DNA from: Candidatus Zhuqueibacterota bacterium
Lineage (GTDB): Bacteria; SM23-31
Assembly: GCA_022562855.1 (NCBI GenBank)
Contig: JADFON010000009.1
Span: 1 to 14,671 of the forward strand
Length of the DNA: 14,671 nucleotides
Direction: 5' to 3'
The translations under genes and the position numbers were made by a program. This document shows, piece after piece, positions 2-13,146 of the stretch (position 1 is its first letter; the number at the start of each line of letters is the position of its first letter). The notes beneath the pieces are model-generated. The model ran no database searches and was not told the origin of the DNA. It was given only the letters and a program-made list of their open reading frames with translations.

Positions 2-2422
2 GATGCGGACGGCGAAGAGTTGTTTTTCGATATATTTTTCAATATTGATTCTATCTTTACGCTTGATAACTTTATTGCCGAGAGTCAGAACGATACATTT
101 TTTGCGCTTCCGTCGGAATTGCTGGCAAACACGACATATTACTGGAAAGTAGATGTACGGGATGAAACGGGCAACTGGAGATTCGGACCGCCATGGTCTT
201 TTACCACCGGGTCGGAATCAAATAATGCTCCTCAAGCAGTTATACTCTCCCCGGCAGATGGTTCTCAATTCTCTCTCAACGACCCTGTGACATTCAGAGG
301 ATCGGGATTCGACGTTGAAAACGGCGTATTATCCGGGGGCAATCTGCAGTGGAATTCAAATATAGACGGCATCATCGGTACCGATACATTGTTAACAGTG
401 TCGACTTTGAAGGCGGGAATTCACACAATCACTCTCAAAGCTACTGACAGCAGCAGCAAAATAGGTTCTGATAACATCCGGATTACAATCCTGGATCCTT
501 CTGCACAGAATATACCGCCCTCAGCGCTGATTCTTTCACCTGTAGACGGAGCCTCGATAGGTGAAAACCAGGAGATAACTTTTAAAGGGACCGGCAGCGA
601 TATTGAGGATGGTCCGCTTTCCGGCACAAATCTCACATGGACATCTTCGATTGACGGTTTTCTCGGCAACGATACCCTGCTGTTGAAATCGGGCTTAACG
701 AAAGGCAACCACACCATAACGCTTCAAGTAACCGATTCGGGCGGATTATCTCATGAACAATCCATACAAATTTCAATTACGCAGGTATTCAATACCGCCC
801 CTTTGATCCAGATTGTCGAGCCGTTTAGTTTTGCGCCTTATGCGGTCGATTCACTTATAACCTTTACGGGAACGGCATTCGATATTGAGGACGGTCCTTT
901 GACAGGCGCTTCGGTAACATGGACGTCAAACCGTGACGGTCTTTTAGGTACAGGCACAAGCATTACCTTTACCGGTCTTTCACTCGGTTTTCACACGATA
1001 ATTATGACAGGTGAAGACTCCCAGGGGAAAAGCAGTTCAGACCAGGTTATAATAAATATTACACCCATTGGCGACGCAAACAATGCTCCTGTGGCAACCA
1101 TCAGCCAGCCTAAAAACGATGAAGTGATTATCGAAGGAACGCAGGTTACGCTTCAGGGGAACGGAATAGATACCGAAGACGGGATAATAAACAATTCTTT
1201 GCTCAGGTGGAATTCTGAAAAAGACGGTTTTCTGGGGACAGGATCGAGCTTAACTCTTCCCGCTTTGTCGCTGGGTAAACATGTCATAACGTTGTCAATA
1301 CTTGACAGCGGGGGCAAGCGCGATTCTTCGATTGTTACATTTTTTATTAGCGCCGCGGGAAATACTGCGCCATCAGCGAGGTTTAATGTCGAACAAGTCT
1401 TTCCACCGCCGACTCCCGGTACGGTGAATATCGTCCTCGACGCCTCCTTTCTAAGTGACGAGACCGATGCGTTAGAGGATATAGAAGTACGCTGGGACTT
1501 TGATAATGACGGAACGTTTGACACACAATTTGCCGCCACAAAAAGCGCGGAGTACTCTTATACCGAAAAAAATGAACCGCATTTCATAAAAATACAAGTC
1601 AGAGACCTGGGCGGTCTTACAGACGAACTGGTGTTAATCGTCCCGGAATATGTAAAAGTACCGGCGGGAAATTTTGAAATGGGTTCACTGACAGGCGGTC
1701 CTTCCGATGAACAGCCACGTCACACCGTGACGCTTGATTTATATTACATTGACAAGTTTGAGGTAACGAATTGGCAGTTTGCCGCATTCCTGACGGCAAA
1801 CCAGTCAACCGCCGGGGATCATTTTTCATCACAAATGTCGATTGCAAAATTATCCGACGGTTCTTATGAAGCGGTGAAAGGATTAGAAAATTATCCTGTC
1901 CGATATGTCGAATGGTTATCGGCAGAAGCGTTCTCCGTATGGAAAAACAAGCGTCTCCCAACTGAAGCTGAATGGGCAAAAGCGGCACGCGGCGGACAAT
2001 TTCTTGACGAGGCGAAAACTGTTGTAAACGACCAGCCGGTCCGCAATTATCCATGGGGAACAACAATCAGCCTCAATCATGCAAATTACCTGATAGTCGG
2101 CAGACCGTTTGACGGTCTTGCCCCTGCTGGAATATACACCGGACAGCTAATAAACAGTGTACAGACCATAAACAACGCATCCCCATACGGCGCTATGGAC
2201 ATGCTTGGAAATATTGCAGAATGGGTATCGGACTGGTATGACAGTGGATATTACAGTGTGTCACCGGCTTCCAATCCCCAGGGACCGGCAAGCGGAAGCT
2301 TCAAAATTTACCGGGGCGGGTCTTTCGACCATCCCGAATCGGAACTTCTCATCAGCAAACGGTTTGTTGCATTACCTTCCTCCCGACCGTATAATGTCGG
2401 ATTCAGAACCGCGAGGAATTAG
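2..2422 (+). CDS. Ig-like repeat protein with C-terminal FGE/SUMF1-like domain (5' partial)
   Basis: The frame is open to the left edge, so the N-terminus and any signal peptide lie outside the window; the TTG at 20 is not a credible start. Numbering residues from base 20, residues ~1-65 look fibronectin type III-like (YYWKVDVRDETGNW). Residues ~68-447 hold four repeats of about 95 residues, and ~448-541 a PKD-like module (VRWDFDNDGTFD). Residues ~543-800 are an FGE-sulfatase/SUMF1 fold, recognised by YVKVPAGNFEMGS, DEQPRHTVTL, RLPTEAEWAKAARGG, MDMLGNIAEWVSDWY, YRGGSF and the terminal VGFRTARN. True FGEs convert a sulfatase cysteine to formylglycine using active-site cysteines, one of them in a C-terminal FRC motif; here that residue is Thr and the visible protein has no cysteine. 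A surface adhesion, binding or scaffold role is more likely than catalysis (inference). The fold call is secure; the function is not known. Confidence 0.9.
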   Translation, partial: DADGEELFFDIFFNIDSIFTLDNFIAESQNDTFFALPSELLANTTYYWKVDVRDETGNWRFGPPWSFTTGSESNNAPQAVILSPADGSQFSLNDPVTFRGSGFDVENGVLSGGNLQWNSNIDGIIGTDTLLTVSTLKAGIHTITLKATDSSSKIGSDNIRITILDPSAQNIPPSALILSPVDGASIGENQEITFKGTGSDIEDGPLSGTNLTWTSSIDGFLGNDTLLLKSGLTKGNHTITLQVTDSGGLSHEQSIQISITQVFNTAPLIQIVEPFSFAPYAVDSLITFTGTAFDIEDGPLTGASVTWTSNRDGLLGTGTSITFTGLSLGFHTIIMTGEDSQGKSSSDQVIINITPIGDANNAPVATISQPKNDEVIIEGTQVTLQGNGIDTEDGIINNSLLRWNSEKDGFLGTGSSLTLPALSLGKHVITLSILDSGGKRDSSIVTFFISAAGNTAPSARFNVEQVFPPPTPGTVNIVLDASFLSDETDALEDIEVRWDFDNDGTFDTQFAATKSAEYSYTEKNEPHFIKIQVRDLGGLTDELVLIVPEYVKVPAGNFEMGSLTGGPSDEQPRHTVTLDLYYIDKFEVTNWQFAAFLTANQSTAGDHFSSQMSIAKLSDGSYEAVKGLENYPVRYVEWLSAEAFSVWKNKRLPTEAEWAKAARGGQFLDEAKTVVNDQPVRNYPWGTTISLNHANYLIVGRPFDGLAPAGIYTGQLINSVQTINNASPYGAMDMLGNIAEWVSDWYDSGYYSVSPASNPQGPASGSFKIYRGGSFDHPESELLISKRFVALPSSRPYNVGFRTARN
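221..1360 (+). repeat. Four tandem ~95-residue Ig/cadherin-like repeat units
   Basis: Within the FGE-like gene, units begin near bases 221, 509, 791 and 1079, each opening with an N-x-A/P-P motif (NNAPQ, NIPPS, NTAPL, NNAPV). The next module starts with NTAPS at 1361, so the period is 94-96 residues. Each unit repeats the same landmarks: a DxEDGxL-like loop, LxWxS, DGxxGT and a GxHxITL strand. The DNA copies have diverged, so this is an old protein-level repeat rather than a recent duplication. The pattern resembles extracellular beta-sandwich modules. Confidence 0.85.
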
Positions 2423-2552
2423 CGTTTATAGCAAATCGACGAATCTTTTCCACATCTCGATTACCTGTATTTCATCATCTCCTTTCGAATAGTGTTGACT
2501 ATTGGATTTATTTTAACGAAATTTCTAAAAGTATAACCCGATTTTAATAGCT

Positions 2553-2996
2553 ATGTTCTTCAAAAGAAAAAAAGACGACGTACAAATTGAGAAATTTGAG
2601 GGATTCCGGACGCAGACGACCTTTGGGTGCAAGGGACAGTTGAAAACTCAGTTTTTCGACCTGGAAAAACCGGTTGACGAAGAATTAATCGAATACCTGA
2701 AACCGTTCGGACATCCCATACTGCTTGGAGGAAGAATGTATGAAATCCGGCGTGAGGGTTATTTCCGGCTGTTGTTAACCCCCGGAACAAACACTTTTCA
2801 TGCCCGATTTGTGAAGAACTGCGACCCAAAAATCAGGGATCTGCTTACAAGACAGGTTTTCCGTGCAATAAATGGGAACGATCAAGGTGAATTACCTTCA
2901 CGGTGTCCCGAAGGCGCAATAAACGTTAACCGGGAAAACGGCAGTAAAATTTCTATTGATTTGAAGAAATGTACATTTTGTCTTGAATGCATATGA
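2553..2996 (+). CDS. Small orphan [4Fe-4S] protein, function unknown
   Basis: This is a 147-residue soluble protein with no signal peptide or membrane segment. Its C-terminus reads R-C118-PEGAI and then, 22 residues later, C140-TFC143-LEC146-I and stop. In two-cluster ferredoxins the CP cysteine of the first motif and the CxxCxxC of the second ligate the same cluster. The four cysteines here therefore match one complete [4Fe-4S] site, with the other half of each motif absent (inference). C26 and C90 are extra cysteines. Residues 1-110 are mixed charged and hydrophobic and match no family I can name. The ATG follows AT-rich sequence without a clear Shine-Dalgarno site. The gene stands alone: 130 bases after the FGE-like gene and converging with the AstE-like operon. 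Electron transfer or cluster carriage is plausible but not shown. Confidence 0.75.
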   Translation: MFFKRKKDDVQIEKFEGFRTQTTFGCKGQLKTQFFDLEKPVDEELIEYLKPFGHPILLGGRMYEIRREGYFRLLLTPGTNTFHARFVKNCDPKIRDLLTRQVFRAINGNDQGELPSRCPEGAINVNRENGSKISIDLKKCTFCLECI

Positions 2997-3032: not shown

Positions 3033-4031
3033 TTACCGATTCTTCAAAGCTTTCTCGGCAATTTCAAGCGACCTATCAAGCATTACATAGGAACATACTT
3101 CATTTCCGGGATTGACAAGCGGATTCGTGGAATGGCTGATAATCAGCCCGTTTTGTGGTGCAACAATAGTCTCTATTTCCTCACCGAACGGGTTTGCCAC
3201 TTTTGCCAGCAATTCGCCTTCGTAAACCAGGTCTCCAGCCTGTACATGGACATACAATATCCCTCCCTGGGTTGTCTGGACACTTCGGTTTTTTTTGACA
3301 ATGATCGAAAATGACGGTTCTTTCCTTTCGATATCTACCATTTCCAAGCTTGACAGCACATTCATCAACCCGTTTACGCCTGATTCGGTTATCTTTTTGT
3401 CAAACCGAAGCACCTCTCCGCCGGAGAATACTATAGTAGGAATATCCTCTTTATTAGCGGCATGTTGAAGCGATTTCTTCGGTCCCGGTGTATTTATTAT
3501 GATTGTCGTTCCGAATGCCCGTGCAAGACGATGAACATCCCTGTTATTGAGATCGGCATTAATGTGGGGTATTTCGTATCTATTTTCGCGGGGTGTATGA
3601 ATATCGATCCCAAAATCACACCTTTTTATTATCTCCTCAAAAATTATATATGCAATTCGAGAAGCCGGAGACCCCTTATTAATTCCCGGAAACGAATTAT
3701 TAAGATTGCGCCTGTCAGGGGTATTTCGGGTCATAGTGTAAAACCCGAATATATTGACAATAGGAATACACAGCAAAGTCCCCGAAAGTTCGGAAGGCTT
3801 TATTCTTGCGGTCAACTGCCTGACAATCTCGATACCGTTTATTTCGTCACCATGAATTGCGGCTGTTACAAATACTACCGGTCCTTCCTGTTCACCATGA
3901 AGCGCTATTACCGGAATATAAACCGGATTCGAAGTATAAAACTCGCTAATCTTGAGGCGTAATTCTTTTTTTTCGCCCGGAGAAATCTCTTCCCCTATAA
4001 TATGTAATGTACTATTCATAGATGTAGACAT
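3033..4031 (-). CDS. AstE/aspartoacylase-family protein, divergent paralogue with altered active site
   Basis: This 332-residue protein belongs to the succinylglutamate desuccinylase/aspartoacylase group of zinc-dependent M14-like amidohydrolases. Predicted zinc ligands are present: H60 and E63 in AAIHGDEINGIE, and H145 in DIHTP. R102 and N111 align with substrate-site residues of aspartoacylase. Three positions depart from the upstream paralogue and the family: DLNR has become NLNN (R to N at 112), the Glu of the E-x-G motif expected to be the catalytic base is S203, and the Arg of PHVRAD is N158. The C-terminal ~80 residues form a beta-rich domain (GGILYVHVQAGDLVYEGELL) that looks lipoyl/biotinyl-like. 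It is third in the rimK operon, its ATG (4031-4029) only three bases after the previous stop. The frame is intact, so it is conserved rather than decaying. It may be a non-catalytic partner or have a changed substrate. The family call is firm. Confidence 0.88.
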   Translation of the reverse strand: MSTSMNSTLHIIGEEISPGEKKELRLKISEFYTSNPVYIPVIALHGEQEGPVVFVTAAIHGDEINGIEIVRQLTARIKPSELSGTLLCIPIVNIFGFYTMTRNTPDRRNLNNSFPGINKGSPASRIAYIIFEEIIKRCDFGIDIHTPRENRYEIPHINADLNNRDVHRLARAFGTTIIINTPGPKKSLQHAANKEDIPTIVFSGGEVLRFDKKITESGVNGLMNVLSSLEMVDIERKEPSFSIIVKKNRSVQTTQGGILYVHVQAGDLVYEGELLAKVANPFGEEIETIVAPQNGLIISHSTNPLVNPGNEVCSYVMLDRSLEIAEKALKNR

Positions 4032-4034
4032 TTT

Positions 4035-5054
4035 TCAGAAAACAACTCTTTTTACACCAAAATGAGCTTTTAGTTTCTCTCGTAAGGACTTGACCGGTTC
4101 GTCAATTTTAGAAATGCTGCATATCCCCTCACCCGGGGTCACCGTCGGTGACGTGGCGATTCCAAGAATTATTCCATTATAGGGCGAACGGATGGACTCG
4201 ATCTCAAGACCGAAAGGATTCGTATTCGTTGCGATCTTAACATTCTTTTTAACGATCCTGCCCGGGCGTGTGTTTATAGAAAGAATTCCACCCCGGTCTG
4301 CCCGAACCCAATGAGGCTTCTTTACCACGAACTGAATTGGGGCAATGTACTTTTCACCGGGTATCATTTCAAGTTCCTTGAGAACATTCAGGACACTTAT
4401 AAGCCCGTTTGAAGCAATTTTCTTTTCAAATTTGCGGGTCTCACCTGCTTCAAATACTATTGACGGGATACCGTTGTCGGTCGCTGTTTTTCTCAGCGTA
4501 CCATTGTACCCTTCGTTATCCAGTATAACGGTTGTACCAAAAGCGTGTGCTATTCGCGCTACTTCCGGATTGCTCATGTCAGCCCGGACATGGGGCAGAT
4601 TCGACCTTCCTTCAGAGGCAGTATGTAAGTCAAGTATATAATTGCTTTTAGCAGCGAGTTCATTATAAATAATATACGCGTATTTTCCCTGCGACCACTG
4701 TGTATTGTCTCCTGGAAAATGTCTATTCAAGTCCTTCCCTTCCGGAAGATACCGCGTTGTATTTTGGAAACCATAGATATTAACTACCGGCACGCATATG
4801 AGGGTACCTGAAAGTTGAGACACATCAATGCTGTAAATCAACCGCCTGACTATTTCAATCCCGTTTAGTTCGTCACCGTGAATCGCAGCTGTGACGAGGA
4901 CAACAGGACCGGATTTTATTCCATGAAATACTGTTATCGGAATGAATGTGGGATTTGCTACAAACGAAGTACTGACCTGCAGACGAAGTTGTATTTTTTC
5001 ACCGCGTTTTATTTTTGTACCGGCGATTTCTATAGATCTTTTTTTGAATATCAC
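4035..5054 (-). CDS. AstE/aspartoacylase-family zinc amidohydrolase
   Basis: This 339-residue protein is of the succinylglutamate desuccinylase/aspartoacylase group, which cleaves N-acyl or amide bonds of amino acids using one zinc. All expected active-site elements are present: H59 and E62 (AAIHGDELNGIE), R101, the D108-L-N-R111 HFPG motif, H144 (DLHTA), PHVRAD near 154-159, and E202 in FEAGE as the likely catalytic base. The C-terminal third is a beta-rich domain (GGILSINTRPGRIVKKNVKI), as in the paralogue downstream. The start is GTG at 5054-5052 and overlaps the rimK stop as GTGA, which implies translational coupling. No signal peptide is seen, so it is probably cytoplasmic. Coupling to rimK suggests it acts on the product or substrate of that ligase; the true substrate cannot be read from sequence. 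Confidence 0.9.
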   Translation of the reverse strand: MIFKKRSIEIAGTKIKRGEKIQLRLQVSTSFVANPTFIPITVFHGIKSGPVVLVTAAIHGDELNGIEIVRRLIYSIDVSQLSGTLICVPVVNIYGFQNTTRYLPEGKDLNRHFPGDNTQWSQGKYAYIIYNELAAKSNYILDLHTASEGRSNLPHVRADMSNPEVARIAHAFGTTVILDNEGYNGTLRKTATDNGIPSIVFEAGETRKFEKKIASNGLISVLNVLKELEMIPGEKYIAPIQFVVKKPHWVRADRGGILSINTRPGRIVKKNVKIATNTNPFGLEIESIRSPYNGIILGIATSPTVTPGEGICSISKIDEPVKSLREKLKAHFGVKRVVF

Positions 5055-5959
5055 TGACCGGTTCCCGGGTCGATTCCACTGGATTCTGCAGCTAATTTTT
5101 TTGCATAAGCGACAATGTTTTTCCCGACATTTATTTGCGTCGCTTTTTCTATCCCCTCTATTCCGGGCGAGGCATTCACTTCGAGCACCATCAGACCTTG
5201 CGCGGATTCAAGGATATCCACACCCGCGACTCCAAGACCAAGCACAATTGCGGATTTTTTTGCTATCTCTCTGTGTTCATCGCTTAATTCAATCGGTTCT
5301 CCAATTGCACCTTTATGAATATTTGAGCGAAATTCGCCATATTTAGCAACACGTTTGTACCCGGCAACTACTTCACCATCAACTATAATTACTCTAACAT
5401 CAGTTCCCCGCGATTCAATTATGTATTGCTGTATCAGCATGTGTCTGCCAAGACGCCAAAATGCATCTACCGTTGATTCTGCCGACTGTTTTGATTCGAG
5501 AATAATTACACCGACACCTTGTGTTCCCCGTATGAGCTTTATAATAACAGGGACACCGCCAACTCTGTCAATCGCTTTAGAAATATTAGCCGGATTTCTC
5601 ACCATAATAGAAGCCGGAACCTTTAAACCTGCCTGAGATAGAACTTGCAGTGAATGAAACTTGTCACGGGCTACGGCGATAGCATCAGGATTCGCTACCG
5701 AAGGAACACCCGAATCGACAAACCAGCGTAAGATAGAATTTCCGTAATGCGTGATAGAGAAACCGAATCTAGGAATCACAGCATCTACCCTTCTTTGCTT
5801 TTTCTTGTTGTAATACAAATAGCGATTATCCTTCCCGACAAATATATCGCATTTGAGAGGGTTCAAAACAACAGGTTCAACGTCTTGTTCCTTGCACTCT
5901 TCAATAAGACGTCTCGTTGTATATAAAGATCTTTTTCGGGAAAGTATAGCTATACGCAT
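5051..5959 (-). CDS. rimK: RimK-type alpha-L-glutamate ligase (ribosomal protein S6 modification)
   Basis: This 302-residue ATP-grasp ligase is close to Escherichia coli RimK (300 residues) along its whole length. E. coli RimK adds glutamates to the C-terminus of ribosomal protein S6, and can make poly-alpha-glutamate in vitro. The N-terminus MRIAILSRKRSLYTTRRLIE matches the RimK start. Visible ATP-grasp elements include K100, K141 in the IIKLIRGTQGVGV strand-loop, D248 (VAGVDIL), and E260 and N262 in EVNASPGIEGIEK; these fall at the same positions as the E. coli metal and nucleotide residues I recall. The ATG at 5959 gives full family length. It is first in a three-gene operon, its stop overlapping the GTG start of the next gene. 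S6 itself is not in the window, so S6 as substrate is inferred from homology. Related ligases act on other acceptors. Confidence 0.93.
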   Translation of the reverse strand: MRIAILSRKRSLYTTRRLIEECKEQDVEPVVLNPLKCDIFVGKDNRYLYYNKKKQRRVDAVIPRFGFSITHYGNSILRWFVDSGVPSVANPDAIAVARDKFHSLQVLSQAGLKVPASIMVRNPANISKAIDRVGGVPVIIKLIRGTQGVGVIILESKQSAESTVDAFWRLGRHMLIQQYIIESRGTDVRVIIVDGEVVAGYKRVAKYGEFRSNIHKGAIGEPIELSDEHREIAKKSAIVLGLGVAGVDILESAQGLMVLEVNASPGIEGIEKATQINVGKNIVAYAKKLAAESSGIDPGTGQ

Positions 5960-6130: not shown

Positions 6131-6397
6131 ATGATGGAAAATCAGATACTACTTCAAGAACTCGAAAACATTGCAACCAAACTCGATATAACCGTCCGGT
6201 ATGAAAACGGCGATTTCGCAGGTGGATTATGCCGTGTTAAGGAAGAAAACGTTCTCATCATCAACAAAAAAAACTCTCTGCAAAAAAAAATCACTATTCT
6301 TTCCCGCGAATTAAGCGGAGTAGATTTGAACGCTATATACATTCTTCCCAAACTGCGTGAACGAATATCTATCGAATCGGGCAAAGACCTTTCATAA
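6131..6397 (+). CDS. Small conserved-looking protein of unknown function
   Basis: This 88-residue protein has no signal peptide, membrane segment or cysteine cluster (one Cys only). It looks like a compact alpha/beta fold: an amphipathic N-terminal helix (LLQELENIATKLDITV), a central segment RYENGDFAGGLCRVKEENVL leading into INKKNSLQKKITIL, and a C-terminal LNAIYILPKLRERI helix. Balanced composition and codon use like its neighbours support real coding. I have a vague memory of similar small proteins in Bacteroidetes-like genomes but cannot name a family. Two adjacent ATG codons (6131 and 6134) could each be the start. It is transcribed divergently from rimK and followed by a long hairpin-rich region before the next gene. 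Confidence 0.65.
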   Translation: MMENQILLQELENIATKLDITVRYENGDFAGGLCRVKEENVLIINKKNSLQKKITILSRELSGVDLNAIYILPKLRERISIESGKDLS

Positions 6398-9913: not shown

Positions 9914-10846
9914 ATGAGAAAAATTCTCTTCTTCAGTTGTTTTCTGGTTTTATTAGTTCCCGTGCACACGATTGCTCAGTCTTGTAGCTGCGGTGGCACT
10001 CCACTGCTTAATTCGCTCGAGCTTCCTGCTACTCAACCCGGTTATTGGCAGTTCGCATTGACATATGATTATAACAATATCAATGACACCTATGAGGGGA
10101 CAAAAAAAATCGAAACCACACGGGAAAGGATTACTCGTACGGGTTTGCTCGAGGTTAGTTACGGGTTGTCTAAAAGATTTTCTTTTTCAACGTTGATCAC
10201 TTTTGTTCAACAGGACCGTACCGCCGCAGATGAATTTATCAGGACAAGGGGAATAGGCGACGTTGTAGCTCTTATAAAATACAATTTAATTCCGATGAAT
10301 GCGATAAACCAGAGAACTTTGTCTATTGGTATCGGACCTAAAATCCCCGTCGGAGATGTAAAGTTAAGAAACAGTGGTATTCTTCTGCCTGAGGATTTGC
10401 AGCCGGGCACCGGCGCATGGGACTTGATTTTCTGGGGTTATCTTTTTCAAGGTTTTCAACCTAAGACAAATGCCAATTTGTTTTCGACCTTTTCATACCG
10501 GATAAGCGATGATAATTACCGGGGATTTCGATATGGTAGTGAATTCAGCCTCACGGTAGGCTCAAGTTACGTAACAACGACACCTTTCGATATTTCACTG
10601 CTGCTCCGTTACAGGAATATTGGATCCTATGAGATAAATGGAAATTCCGAAAGCAATACCGGTGGACAATGGCTTTACCTGCTTCCCGGGCTCAATGTCA
10701 AAGTTTCAAACGCGCTTTCTTTTCGTGTCTCAGGTCAAATACCGATTTACCGGGATTTGAACGGGCTTCAGTTGACGACGACGTATACGTCTTCGATATC
10801 TCTATTCTATACTATTATGAAGAAGCCAAAACTTCAAATATTTTAA
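9914..10846 (+). CDS. Exported outer-membrane beta-barrel-like protein
   Basis: This 310-residue protein has a clear Sec signal peptide: MRK, a hydrophobic stretch to about residue 19, and a cleavage region near IAQS. The mature start has SCSCGG. The body alternates aromatic-rich amphipathic strands (YWQFALTYDYN, GLLEVSYGLS, FSFSTLITF, TLSIGIGPKIP, NLFSTFSYRI, FDISLLLRYRN, LSFRVSGQIPIY) with polar turns, as expected of an outer-membrane barrel. The arrangement resembles the transporter-like family annotated as 'MetA-pathway of phenol degradation', but I would not infer phenol metabolism. An AAAGG site (9902-9906) sits seven bases before the ATG. It lies 59 bases after the YyaL-like gene and 50 before the first DUF3179 gene. 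The barrel prediction is fairly confident; the cargo or role is unknown. Confidence 0.75.
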   Translation: MRKILFFSCFLVLLVPVHTIAQSCSCGGTPLLNSLELPATQPGYWQFALTYDYNNINDTYEGTKKIETTRERITRTGLLEVSYGLSKRFSFSTLITFVQQDRTAADEFIRTRGIGDVVALIKYNLIPMNAINQRTLSIGIGPKIPVGDVKLRNSGILLPEDLQPGTGAWDLIFWGYLFQGFQPKTNANLFSTFSYRISDDNYRGFRYGSEFSLTVGSSYVTTTPFDISLLLRYRNIGSYEINGNSESNTGGQWLYLLPGLNVKVSNALSFRVSGQIPIYRDLNGLQLTTTYTSSISLFYTIMKKPKLQIF

Positions 10847-10896
10847 TTGTCCAAATGAATCAAATCAATATTTTTCAAAAAAAAAGGTTAAAGATC

Positions 10897-11970
10897 ATGA
10901 AGGGTAAGTTTGTTACTTGTTTGATTATTACAATTTCACTTTTCTCCGTATCATGTAGTGATATTCTGAATAGCGGATCCGCAGATTTAAGTGGGGACTG
11001 GTTGATACCGACAAACCAGATCCGTGATGGAGGTCCAGGCAAAGACGGTATTCCCTCCCTGGACAGTCCACAATTCATTACTGCGTCCGCAGCAACCTAT
11101 ATGTCAGTTGGCGACCTCGTTATAGGTGTAATAATTGATGGCGAGACACGTGCATATCCGAATTTTATTATGGAGCACCATGAAATTGCAAATGACATTA
11201 TGAACGGTTTTTCATTTAGTCTGACCTTTTGTCCGCTTACAGGTTCTGCAATCGGATGGAATCGGACCATCGAAGGTGTGGTAACGGAATTTGGCGTTTC
11301 AGGATTATTATTCAAAAACAATCTTATCCCATATGACCGACGGACTAACAGCAATTGGTCTCAAATGAGAAATCAAAGTGTTAACGGAGTATTAATTGGA
11401 TTTGATGTTGAGACTTTCCAGGTAGTTGAAACATCGTGGGCAACATGGTTGTCGATGTACCCTGAGACAAGCGTATTGTCTATAAATACAGGATTTAGCC
11501 GCAGTTACGGTACGCCGCTTTACGGCGATTATAATTTTAACCATAATAATATTATTTTCCCTATTACGAATGACGACCCTCGTCTACCAAGGAAAGAGCG
11601 CGTTCACGGTGTAATAATCGATGGACAAGTAGAAGCCTATCAGTTTGAACTTTTTCCGGAAGGAATCGGCGTCTTTAACGACACCAAAGTTGGTGAAGAA
11701 ATCGTCGTTGTTGGAAGTAATGGATTGGGATTCATTGCCTCTTTTAAGAGACTTACCGAAGAAGGCGGCATGCTAATGTTCGAACCTGTACAAGGCGAAT
11801 TACCCGCAGTCATGAGGAGCGAAGACGGAACAACCTGGGATGTTTTTGGAAACGGAATAGACGGACCCAGATCGGGTGAAAGACTCCGGAAACTTGAATC
11901 ATTTATTGCTTTCTGGTTTGCCTGGGGGGATTTTTACCCCGGGCTTACAATACGTTCTAACAATCCGTAA
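10897..11970 (+). CDS. DUF3179 domain protein, probable lipoprotein (copy 1)
   Basis: This 357-residue exported protein carries a DUF3179 domain. The start is the ATG at 10897, with AAAGG nine bases upstream; the frame runs open further upstream only by overlapping the barrel gene. The N-terminus MKGKFVTCLIITISLFSVSC is a signal peptide ending in a possible lipobox with C20 (the -3 position is Ser, so not ideal). Family landmarks are in order: DGIPSL, RAYP, H95-EIAND, FC112PLTGSAIGW, EFGVSGLLF, SWATWLSMYPET, ERVHGVIIDG, GTTWDVFGNGIDGPR and FAWGDFYPG. The function of DUF3179 is unknown; the conserved Cys and His could be a metal or redox site (inference). A paralogue follows after 96 bases. 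Confidence 0.88.
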   Translation: MKGKFVTCLIITISLFSVSCSDILNSGSADLSGDWLIPTNQIRDGGPGKDGIPSLDSPQFITASAATYMSVGDLVIGVIIDGETRAYPNFIMEHHEIANDIMNGFSFSLTFCPLTGSAIGWNRTIEGVVTEFGVSGLLFKNNLIPYDRRTNSNWSQMRNQSVNGVLIGFDVETFQVVETSWATWLSMYPETSVLSINTGFSRSYGTPLYGDYNFNHNNIIFPITNDDPRLPRKERVHGVIIDGQVEAYQFELFPEGIGVFNDTKVGEEIVVVGSNGLGFIASFKRLTEEGGMLMFEPVQGELPAVMRSEDGTTWDVFGNGIDGPRSGERLRKLESFIAFWFAWGDFYPGLTIRSNNP

Positions 11971-12066: not shown

Positions 12067-13146
12067 ATGCTGCAAAAACTGTTTGTTTTTTTGATCGTAT
12101 TTCCAATGCTCTTTTCAAATTGCCAGTCGCAAAAAATTAGCAGCGATAAACAGAACTCGTCCGATTGGTTGATCCCGGAAAATCTTGTAATGTATGGCGG
12201 AGTGCCAAAAGACGGTATTCCCGCTTTGACAAACCCAGTATTTGTCCCGGCATCATCGCTGTATGCAGGCTATGTTGAAGACAATGATTTAGTAATCGGG
12301 ATAATGGTGAATAATGAAGCCCGGGCGTATCCTCATAAAATACTTGACCGGCATGAAATCGTCAACGACACTATTCAGAATACACCGGTTGGTATTGTGT
12401 ATTGTCCGCTTACCGGTTCAGGCATAGGCTGGGACAGGAAAATCAACGGAGAAATAACTGAATTTGGTGTTTCGGGTCTGTTGTACAATTCAAATGTTAT
12501 TCCCTATGACAAAAATACAGACAGTTACTGGACACAAATGGGTTTAATTTGTATCCGGGGAGATTTAAAGGGGCAGAAGGTAACTACGGTACCTGTAATC
12601 GAAACAACATGGGCAACATGGAAGGAAATGTTTCCTGAAACAAAAGTAATATCATCCCAAACAGGATATTATTCTAATTACAGTAATTATCCCTATAAAA
12701 GAAACGGTGAGGACTACCGGGAAAGCGATTTCTTGATATTTCCCATTACAAATTATGACGATAGGATGAGAAGAAAAGAAAAAGTGCATGGAATAATTAT
12801 AGATGAAAGTGCAAAAGCTTACCCTATAAGTTCTTTCAATAAAGAGATAGAGACAATTAACGATGTTTTAAATTTAACTCCTGTTGTCGTTGCCGGCAGC
12901 AGTCAAAGGCATTTTGCGGTGTCATTCATAAGAACGGTTGAAGATGGAACAGTGCTTGAATTCTCCCCCGTTCAGGGTAAGTTACCTATAGTCATGCAAG
13001 ATAATGAAGGTACAACGTGGGATGTGTTTGGAAATGCCGTTGAAGGACCGCGTAAGGGTTCTCGCTTACGTCAGGTTGAATCATTTGATGCGTATTGGTT
13101 TGCCTGGGGAACTTTTTATCCTGACATCGATATTTATAAAAAATAG
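12067..13146 (+). CDS. DUF3179 domain protein, probable exported or lipoprotein (copy 2)
   Basis: This 359-residue paralogue of the preceding gene shares the same order of motifs: DGIPALTNPVF, RAYPHKILDRH96EIVND, YC113PLTGSGIGWDR, EFGVSGLLYNSNVIPYD, TTWATWKEMFPETKV, EKVHGIIID, GTTWDVFGNAVEGPR and WFAWGTFYPD. The N-terminus MLQKLFVFLIVFPMLFSNC is a signal peptide with C19 as possible lipid anchor, though the lipobox is poor (F-S-N-C). A purine-rich GAGAGA stretch sits about six bases before the ATG. Compared with copy 1 it differs mainly between residues 158 and 220 and is closer to what I remember as the usual DUF3179 consensus. The two look like an old tandem duplication with divergence. It is the last gene of the + strand run and converges on the helical membrane protein. 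Confidence 0.88.
   Translation: MLQKLFVFLIVFPMLFSNCQSQKISSDKQNSSDWLIPENLVMYGGVPKDGIPALTNPVFVPASSLYAGYVEDNDLVIGIMVNNEARAYPHKILDRHEIVNDTIQNTPVGIVYCPLTGSGIGWDRKINGEITEFGVSGLLYNSNVIPYDKNTDSYWTQMGLICIRGDLKGQKVTTVPVIETTWATWKEMFPETKVISSQTGYYSNYSNYPYKRNGEDYRESDFLIFPITNYDDRMRRKEKVHGIIIDESAKAYPISSFNKEIETINDVLNLTPVVVAGSSQRHFAVSFIRTVEDGTVLEFSPVQGKLPIVMQDNEGTTWDVFGNAVEGPRKGSRLRQVESFDAYWFAWGTFYPDIDIYKK

Follow-up and report, generated by a model that had tools for sequence, protein, structure and literature searches.

Enzymes of the RimK type normally add glutamate residues to proteins. In Pseudomonas, the protease RimB takes glutamates off polyglutamated RpsF and also stimulates RimK (PMC11957791). Metallopeptidase relatives that have lost activity are likewise on record: Ecm14, a yeast M14 pseudocarboxypeptidase, keeps its zinc ligands and R127 but carries the replacements R145H and E270K and has no detected activity, and the alpha subunit of MPP is an essential inactive partner (PMC11266112). 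In the literature that we searched, no report of an inactive partner within the AstE/AspA family was found, and no paper combined aspartoacylase with a pseudoenzyme or RimK with succinylglutamate desuccinylase; searching there for RimK together with aspartoacylase returned only matches that, judged by title and abstract, were unrelated.

The rimK operon and its two AstE-like genes

The window, by which we mean the whole stretch of 14,671 nucleotides that was analysed, belongs to contig C348 of a 2.5 Mb genome that is 80% complete. It contains a three-gene operon, rimK-AstE1-AstE2, in which all genes lie on the minus strand, rimK and AstE1 overlap by 4 nucleotides, and AstE1 and AstE2 are separated by 3 nucleotides.

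5051 to 5959, minus strand: RimK-type ATP-grasp ligase, the first gene of the operon (206 bits against RimK family PF08443; 237 bits against TIGR00768, above its cut-off)
4035 to 5054, minus strand: AstE1, the paralogue with a complete site (134 bits against PF24827; alignment; structure model)
3033 to 4031, minus strand: AstE2, an AstE/AspA-fold protein without the catalytic Glu (intact open reading frame of 332 amino acids; orthologues in genomes G001 and G002)

A first-pass annotation of this DNA had described AstE2 as an intact frame in the same operon as AstE1, and this description holds. The start codon may correspond to M5 (position 4019), which is the start site of both orthologues. 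When AstE2 was used as the query, the source genome yielded AstE1 and AstE2 alone. AstE2 scores 107 bits against PF24827 (curated cut-off 25) and is thereby a member of the AstE/AspA catalytic domain family. Judged by score, neither paralogue can be assigned to DoeB or AstE, the named enzyme models: AstE2 reaches 73.1 bits against the DoeB model TIGR02994, below the equivalog cut-off of 402.7, and against the AstE succinylglutamate desuccinylase model TIGR03242 (equivalog cut-off 305.65 bits) AstE2 gives no match and AstE1 gives 27 bits.

AlphaFold models of both proteins are confident, with a mean pLDDT of 94.6 for AstE1 and 95.3 for AstE2. The AstE2 model matches EutE/DoeB and 3cdx across residues 12-320 with Z about 35, and this fold match backs the alignment that places the residues discussed below.

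Several other genes in the window were noted. Convergent with AstE2 is a gene for a 147-amino-acid protein (2553-2996, plus strand) that ends in a C-terminal CxxCxxC half-ferredoxin motif and gave no match in a Pfam search; its G002 orthologue adjoins AstE2 as well. Divergent from rimK is a gene for an 88-amino-acid protein of no recognised family (6131-6397, plus strand); in G001 its orthologue occupies the corresponding position. An 800-amino-acid protein with PKD/Ig-like repeats and a C-terminal FGE-sulfatase domain is encoded at 20-2422 (plus strand), where the 5' end may fall beyond the contig. Two adjoining look-alike proteins that carry WLIP...DGIP and CPLTGS motifs (10669-11970 and 12067-13146, plus strand) form another tandem pair.

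Active-site residues and conservation of AstE2

Our comparison set comprised 85 complete RimK-type homologues among the matches listed, including AstE1 and its orthologues. AstE1 itself has a full site by alignment, consisting of H59, E62, R101, N110, R111, H144 and E202. The corresponding features of AstE2 are as follows, all on the minus strand, with fractions referring to the complete homologues listed.

3423 to 3425, minus strand: S203 codon (Glu in 85/85; alignment and solved structures)
3696 to 3698, minus strand: N112 codon (Arg in 85/85; alignment)
3558 to 3560, minus strand: N158 codon (Arg in 85/85; alignment)
3573 to 3575, minus strand: E153 codon, an acid gained near the pocket loop (Asn in 85/85; alignment)
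3465 to 3476, minus strand: K186-Q189 codons, a GSLR-type motif (G and R in 85/85) that is now KSLQ (alignment)
3276 to 3284, minus strand: S250-Q252 codons, W-x-R (85/85) that is now S-V-Q (alignment)
3843 to 3854, minus strand: H60-E63 codons, two kept zinc ligands (predicted from alignment)
3597 to 3599, minus strand: H145 codon, the third kept zinc ligand (predicted from alignment)

Position 203 is Glu in all 85 complete homologues among the matches listed and Ser in all three AstE2 proteins. The same column holds Glu in solved AstE-family structures when these are added by profile alignment, and by motif it corresponds to E178 of human aspartoacylase (AspA; site list from PMC5412892). Seven further sites, each invariant in the 85 complete homologues among the matches listed, are changed in AstE2. 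Four have the same replacement in the window, G001 and G002, namely N153 to E, G186 to K, R189 to Q, and W250 to S. The other three vary: R112 is N in the window, D in G001 and R in G002; R158 is N in the window and E in both other genomes; and R252 is Q in the window and in G001 and H in G002. In addition, Y103, which is Tyr in 83 of the 85 complete homologues listed, has become N or K. In AstE2 of the window, both the NR-pair Arg and R158, which by motif are AspA R71 and R168, are therefore absent; R112 is present in G002. The zinc triad H-x2-E...H (H60, E63 and H145) is found in all three AstE2 orthologues, and AstE2 also keeps R102, N111, D143, R151 and E206.

Most of the residue assignments made at first pass withstand this comparison. 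The retained zinc ligands with R102 and N111 are seen in the alignment, the loss of Glu at 203 was correctly called and is common to all three orthologues, and the placement of S203 and N112 at catalytic positions agrees with the homologue alignment, the solved structures and the AspA motif. The three replacements named there are present in the window, but the list omitted N153E, G186K, R189Q, W250S, R252Q/H and Y103N/K. One of them, given as VRAD to NAD, was right about the loss of Arg but had dropped a letter, the ungapped change being VRAD to INAD (R158N). The change of DLNR to NLNN is likewise real in the window but fails as a clade mark, since the motif reads DLND in G001 and is still DLNR in G002. 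Hence the idea of a conserved NLNN/SGG clade survives for the Ser form, which occurs in all three family genomes with 100/100 support, and not for NLNN, which varies.

The distribution of changes suggests that the fold has been kept while the chemistry was selectively lost. When invariant sites are defined on 82 sequences that do not belong to the family, AstE2 has changed 8 of 21 polar sites versus 1 of 29 non-polar sites (Fisher p 0.0025, with the polar and non-polar classes picked post hoc), so that polar invariants are altered and non-polar ones spared. The values for AstE1 are 2 of 21 and 3 of 29. By alignment, AstE2 has lost the catalytic Glu and most of the substrate-binding Arg residues on an intact fold.

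Six genomes of the phylum were examined. The pair is present in three, where rimK, AstE1 and AstE2 occur in the same order (the source genome, G001 and G002), and the remaining three, which come from other families, gave no match of any kind. Gene duplication gave rise to the operon of RimK, AstE1 and AstE2. Both the AstE2 clade and the AstE1 clade have tree support of 100/100; a clade joining them is not in the best tree, yet it is not rejected (p-AU 0.16), and branching within AstE2 is not firm (p-AU 0.42).

AstE2 orthologues retain an intact frame in three genera at 57-68% identity, and silent sites and third codon positions are saturated among the three family genomes. Because dS is saturated, we compared dN between genes instead of using a dN/dS ratio. 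The values for AstE2 (0.23-0.34) are close to those for RimK (0.21-0.33) and slightly above those for AstE1 (0.17-0.29). A dN like that of RimK at saturated silent sites argues that AstE2 is under purifying selection and is no pseudogene. At the sequence level, then, AstE2 unites what is expected of a conserved pseudoenzyme, which is a lost catalytic residue, an intact frame and purifying selection.

Tandem pairs and RimK-linked AstE genes in other genomes

A profile survey across 386 genomes for tandem AstE pairs revealed pairs on another branch of the family, in eight genomes from four families.

Loci L106, L107, L108 and L119-L123: second-branch tandem pairs, in genomes G010, G042, G034, G158, G181, G187, G295 and G310

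All eight pairs combine a complete upstream copy with a downstream copy that lacks the Glu, the replacements being S, S, C, V, V, K, H and R. These downstream copies have usually lost the zinc ligands too, although that of G310 keeps them. A single clade (99/98) unites the complete copies, and a 100/100 branch separates the RimK type from it. These separate clades indicate that the RimK-type pair and the second-branch pair arose independently.

Half of the second-branch pairs (G034, G042, G187 and G310) adjoin a circularly permuted ATP-grasp gene, and in three of these four a transglutaminase-like and an Alpha-E-like gene lie in between; neighbour families were assigned with Pfam in G034 and G042 and by similarity or sequence start in G187 and G310. 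No circularly permuted ATP-grasp gene was found near the other four. A PAS-like and a response-regulator-like gene precede the pair in G010, G158 and G295.

The repeated appearance of complete-plus-degenerate pairs suggests that a non-catalytic second AstE subunit can be useful in itself. A broader proposal, which we offer tentatively and consider rather doubtful, is that pairing a complete with a degenerate AstE protein is a two-subunit design that has recurred, with at least two separate origins and often with an ATP-grasp ligase as neighbour: RimK in the present operon, a circularly permuted ATP-grasp protein in other loci. In this scheme, cleavage of the ligase product would fall to the complete subunit, and the degenerate one would hold that product or regulate it.

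Single complete AstE genes downstream of rimK occur in many phyla among the matches listed. This adjacency of a RimK-type ligase and AstE is thus widespread, yet the pairing itself has no paper in the literature searched.

A possible partner role and comparison with known systems

We favor the reading, with a probability of about 0.5, that AstE2 is a conserved pseudo-hydrolase and serves AstE1 or RimK as a partner without catalytic activity. Its components differ in strength. Loss of canonical hydrolysis is very probable from the alignment, given that the missing Glu is otherwise invariant in the family. The partner role stands at roughly even odds. AstE1, with its full AspA/M14-type active site, would trim or deacylate the RimK product, as its operon position and M14-like fold suggest, and that product would probably be alpha-glutamate tails, by comparison with trimming by RimB in Pseudomonas. 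AstE2 would be unable to hydrolyse by the family mechanism without the Glu; it might instead assemble with AstE1 as a non-catalytic subunit, or dock on RimK or on the substrate of RimK, and thereby set activity or specificity.

Ribosomal protein S6 of the source genome (L129; G000:C24, around 2332-2595, minus strand) has 307 amino acids, with an encoded tail of 202 residues in which Glu (49 residues), Asp (33) and Ser (28) are abundant, and the terminus KEKE. Ending in Glu after a long acidic tail, it is a possible RimK substrate.

The partner role is backed by the presence of the pair in all three family genomes, by purifying selection, by the second-branch pairs, and by the analogues Ecm14 and alpha-MPP. 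Retention of the zinc triad and R102 counts against it, since a pure scaffold needs neither, as do the four second-branch pairs that have no ATP-grasp gene nearby.

These retained residues could instead mean that AstE2 is a neofunctionalised zinc enzyme. It would hydrolyse a different, less acidic substrate, with E153, E206 or a zinc-hydroxide lacking a general base doing the work. We consider this possible but unlikely. Besides the zinc ligands, R102 and N111, such an enzyme would account for purifying selection and for the residues E153, K186, Q189, S203 and S250, which are identical across the three AstE2 orthologues; the conserved gains E153, K186 and Q189 in particular would also fit a new specificity. 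It conflicts with the invariance of Glu203 in the complete homologues listed and in solved relatives. E206 had been singled out at first pass as a base that might take over, but Glu occupies this position in 86 of 91 aligned homologues, which means nearly all active copies, and we discarded it as a substitute specific to AstE2. If an acid did take over, the more specific candidate would be E153, which all three orthologues have gained.

It is improbable, on present evidence, that AstE2 stands in for RimB by binding RimK or glutamate tails and regulating the ligase rather than AstE1. A RimB-like gene, recognised by its sequence start, lies upstream in several rimK-AstE loci elsewhere, RimB stimulates RimK in Pseudomonas (PMC11957791), and a search of the three family genomes detected no member of the RimB family PF05618, although these genomes are 63-80% complete and rimB may be missed. 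In opposition to this, the fold of RimB differs, and AstE2 has lost rather than gained the basic residues that would bind an acidic tail. Finally, a decaying pseudogene whose frame is not yet lost would explain the several missing catalytic residues and the variation at R112, but we reject it as exceedingly improbable because intact frames at 57-68% identity with saturated silent sites, a dN like that of RimK, and preserved structural invariants are conserved across three genera.

With AstE2 read as a pseudo-hydrolase partner, the locus can be set against described systems. The named enzymes closest in fold are EutE/DoeB N-acetyl-diaminobutyrate deacetylase and the cyanophycin-dipeptide hydrolase CphZ (VIA Z about 35 and 28). 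They act on small substrates and share about 14-22% identity with AstE2, and EutE has the Glu that AstE2 lacks. Human AspA resembles AstE2 in its fold, its zinc triad and the equivalents of R63 and N70 (PMC5412892), whereas AspA R71, R168 and E178 are N, N and S in AstE2. RimK-linked AstE/AspA proteins (PF24827) of Pseudomonadota, Cyanobacteriota, Planctomycetota and others share the fold, the place after rimK, and 36-44% identity, but each occurs as a single copy and has Glu203, R112, R158, R189, W250 and R252, the Glu and most of the rest being absent from AstE2. The Pseudomonas RimABK and RimB-RimK systems resemble the operon of the window in that a RimK ligase adjoins a predicted remover of its product (PMC11957791, PMC10092738); there the eraser is RimB, a retropepsin-like protease, and here the candidates are AstE proteins, in incomplete genomes where RimB was not detected.

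Ecm14 is a close analogue in its pattern of kept zinc ligands with a lost base and Arg, although it belongs to the M14 carboxypeptidase family, has a prodomain, and has no known active tandem partner. The alpha and beta subunits of MPP (M16) and their prokaryotic two-gene homologues combine complete and inactive homologous subunits, encoded in one operon in prokaryotes (PMC11266112). A gene arrangement of this kind, with complete and degenerate homologues adjacent and conserved together, is found in all three family genomes. The MPP fold is unrelated, alpha-MPP has no zinc motif, and the MPP complex is proven whereas the AstE pair is known from its genes. A lineage in which RimK adjoins two AstE proteins, one complete and the other stripped of its catalytic residues, offers a direct handle on the role of the AstE partner. 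Inactive partners are already known among metallopeptidases from MPP, and by analogy AstE1 and AstE2 would add a case from the AstE/AspA family.
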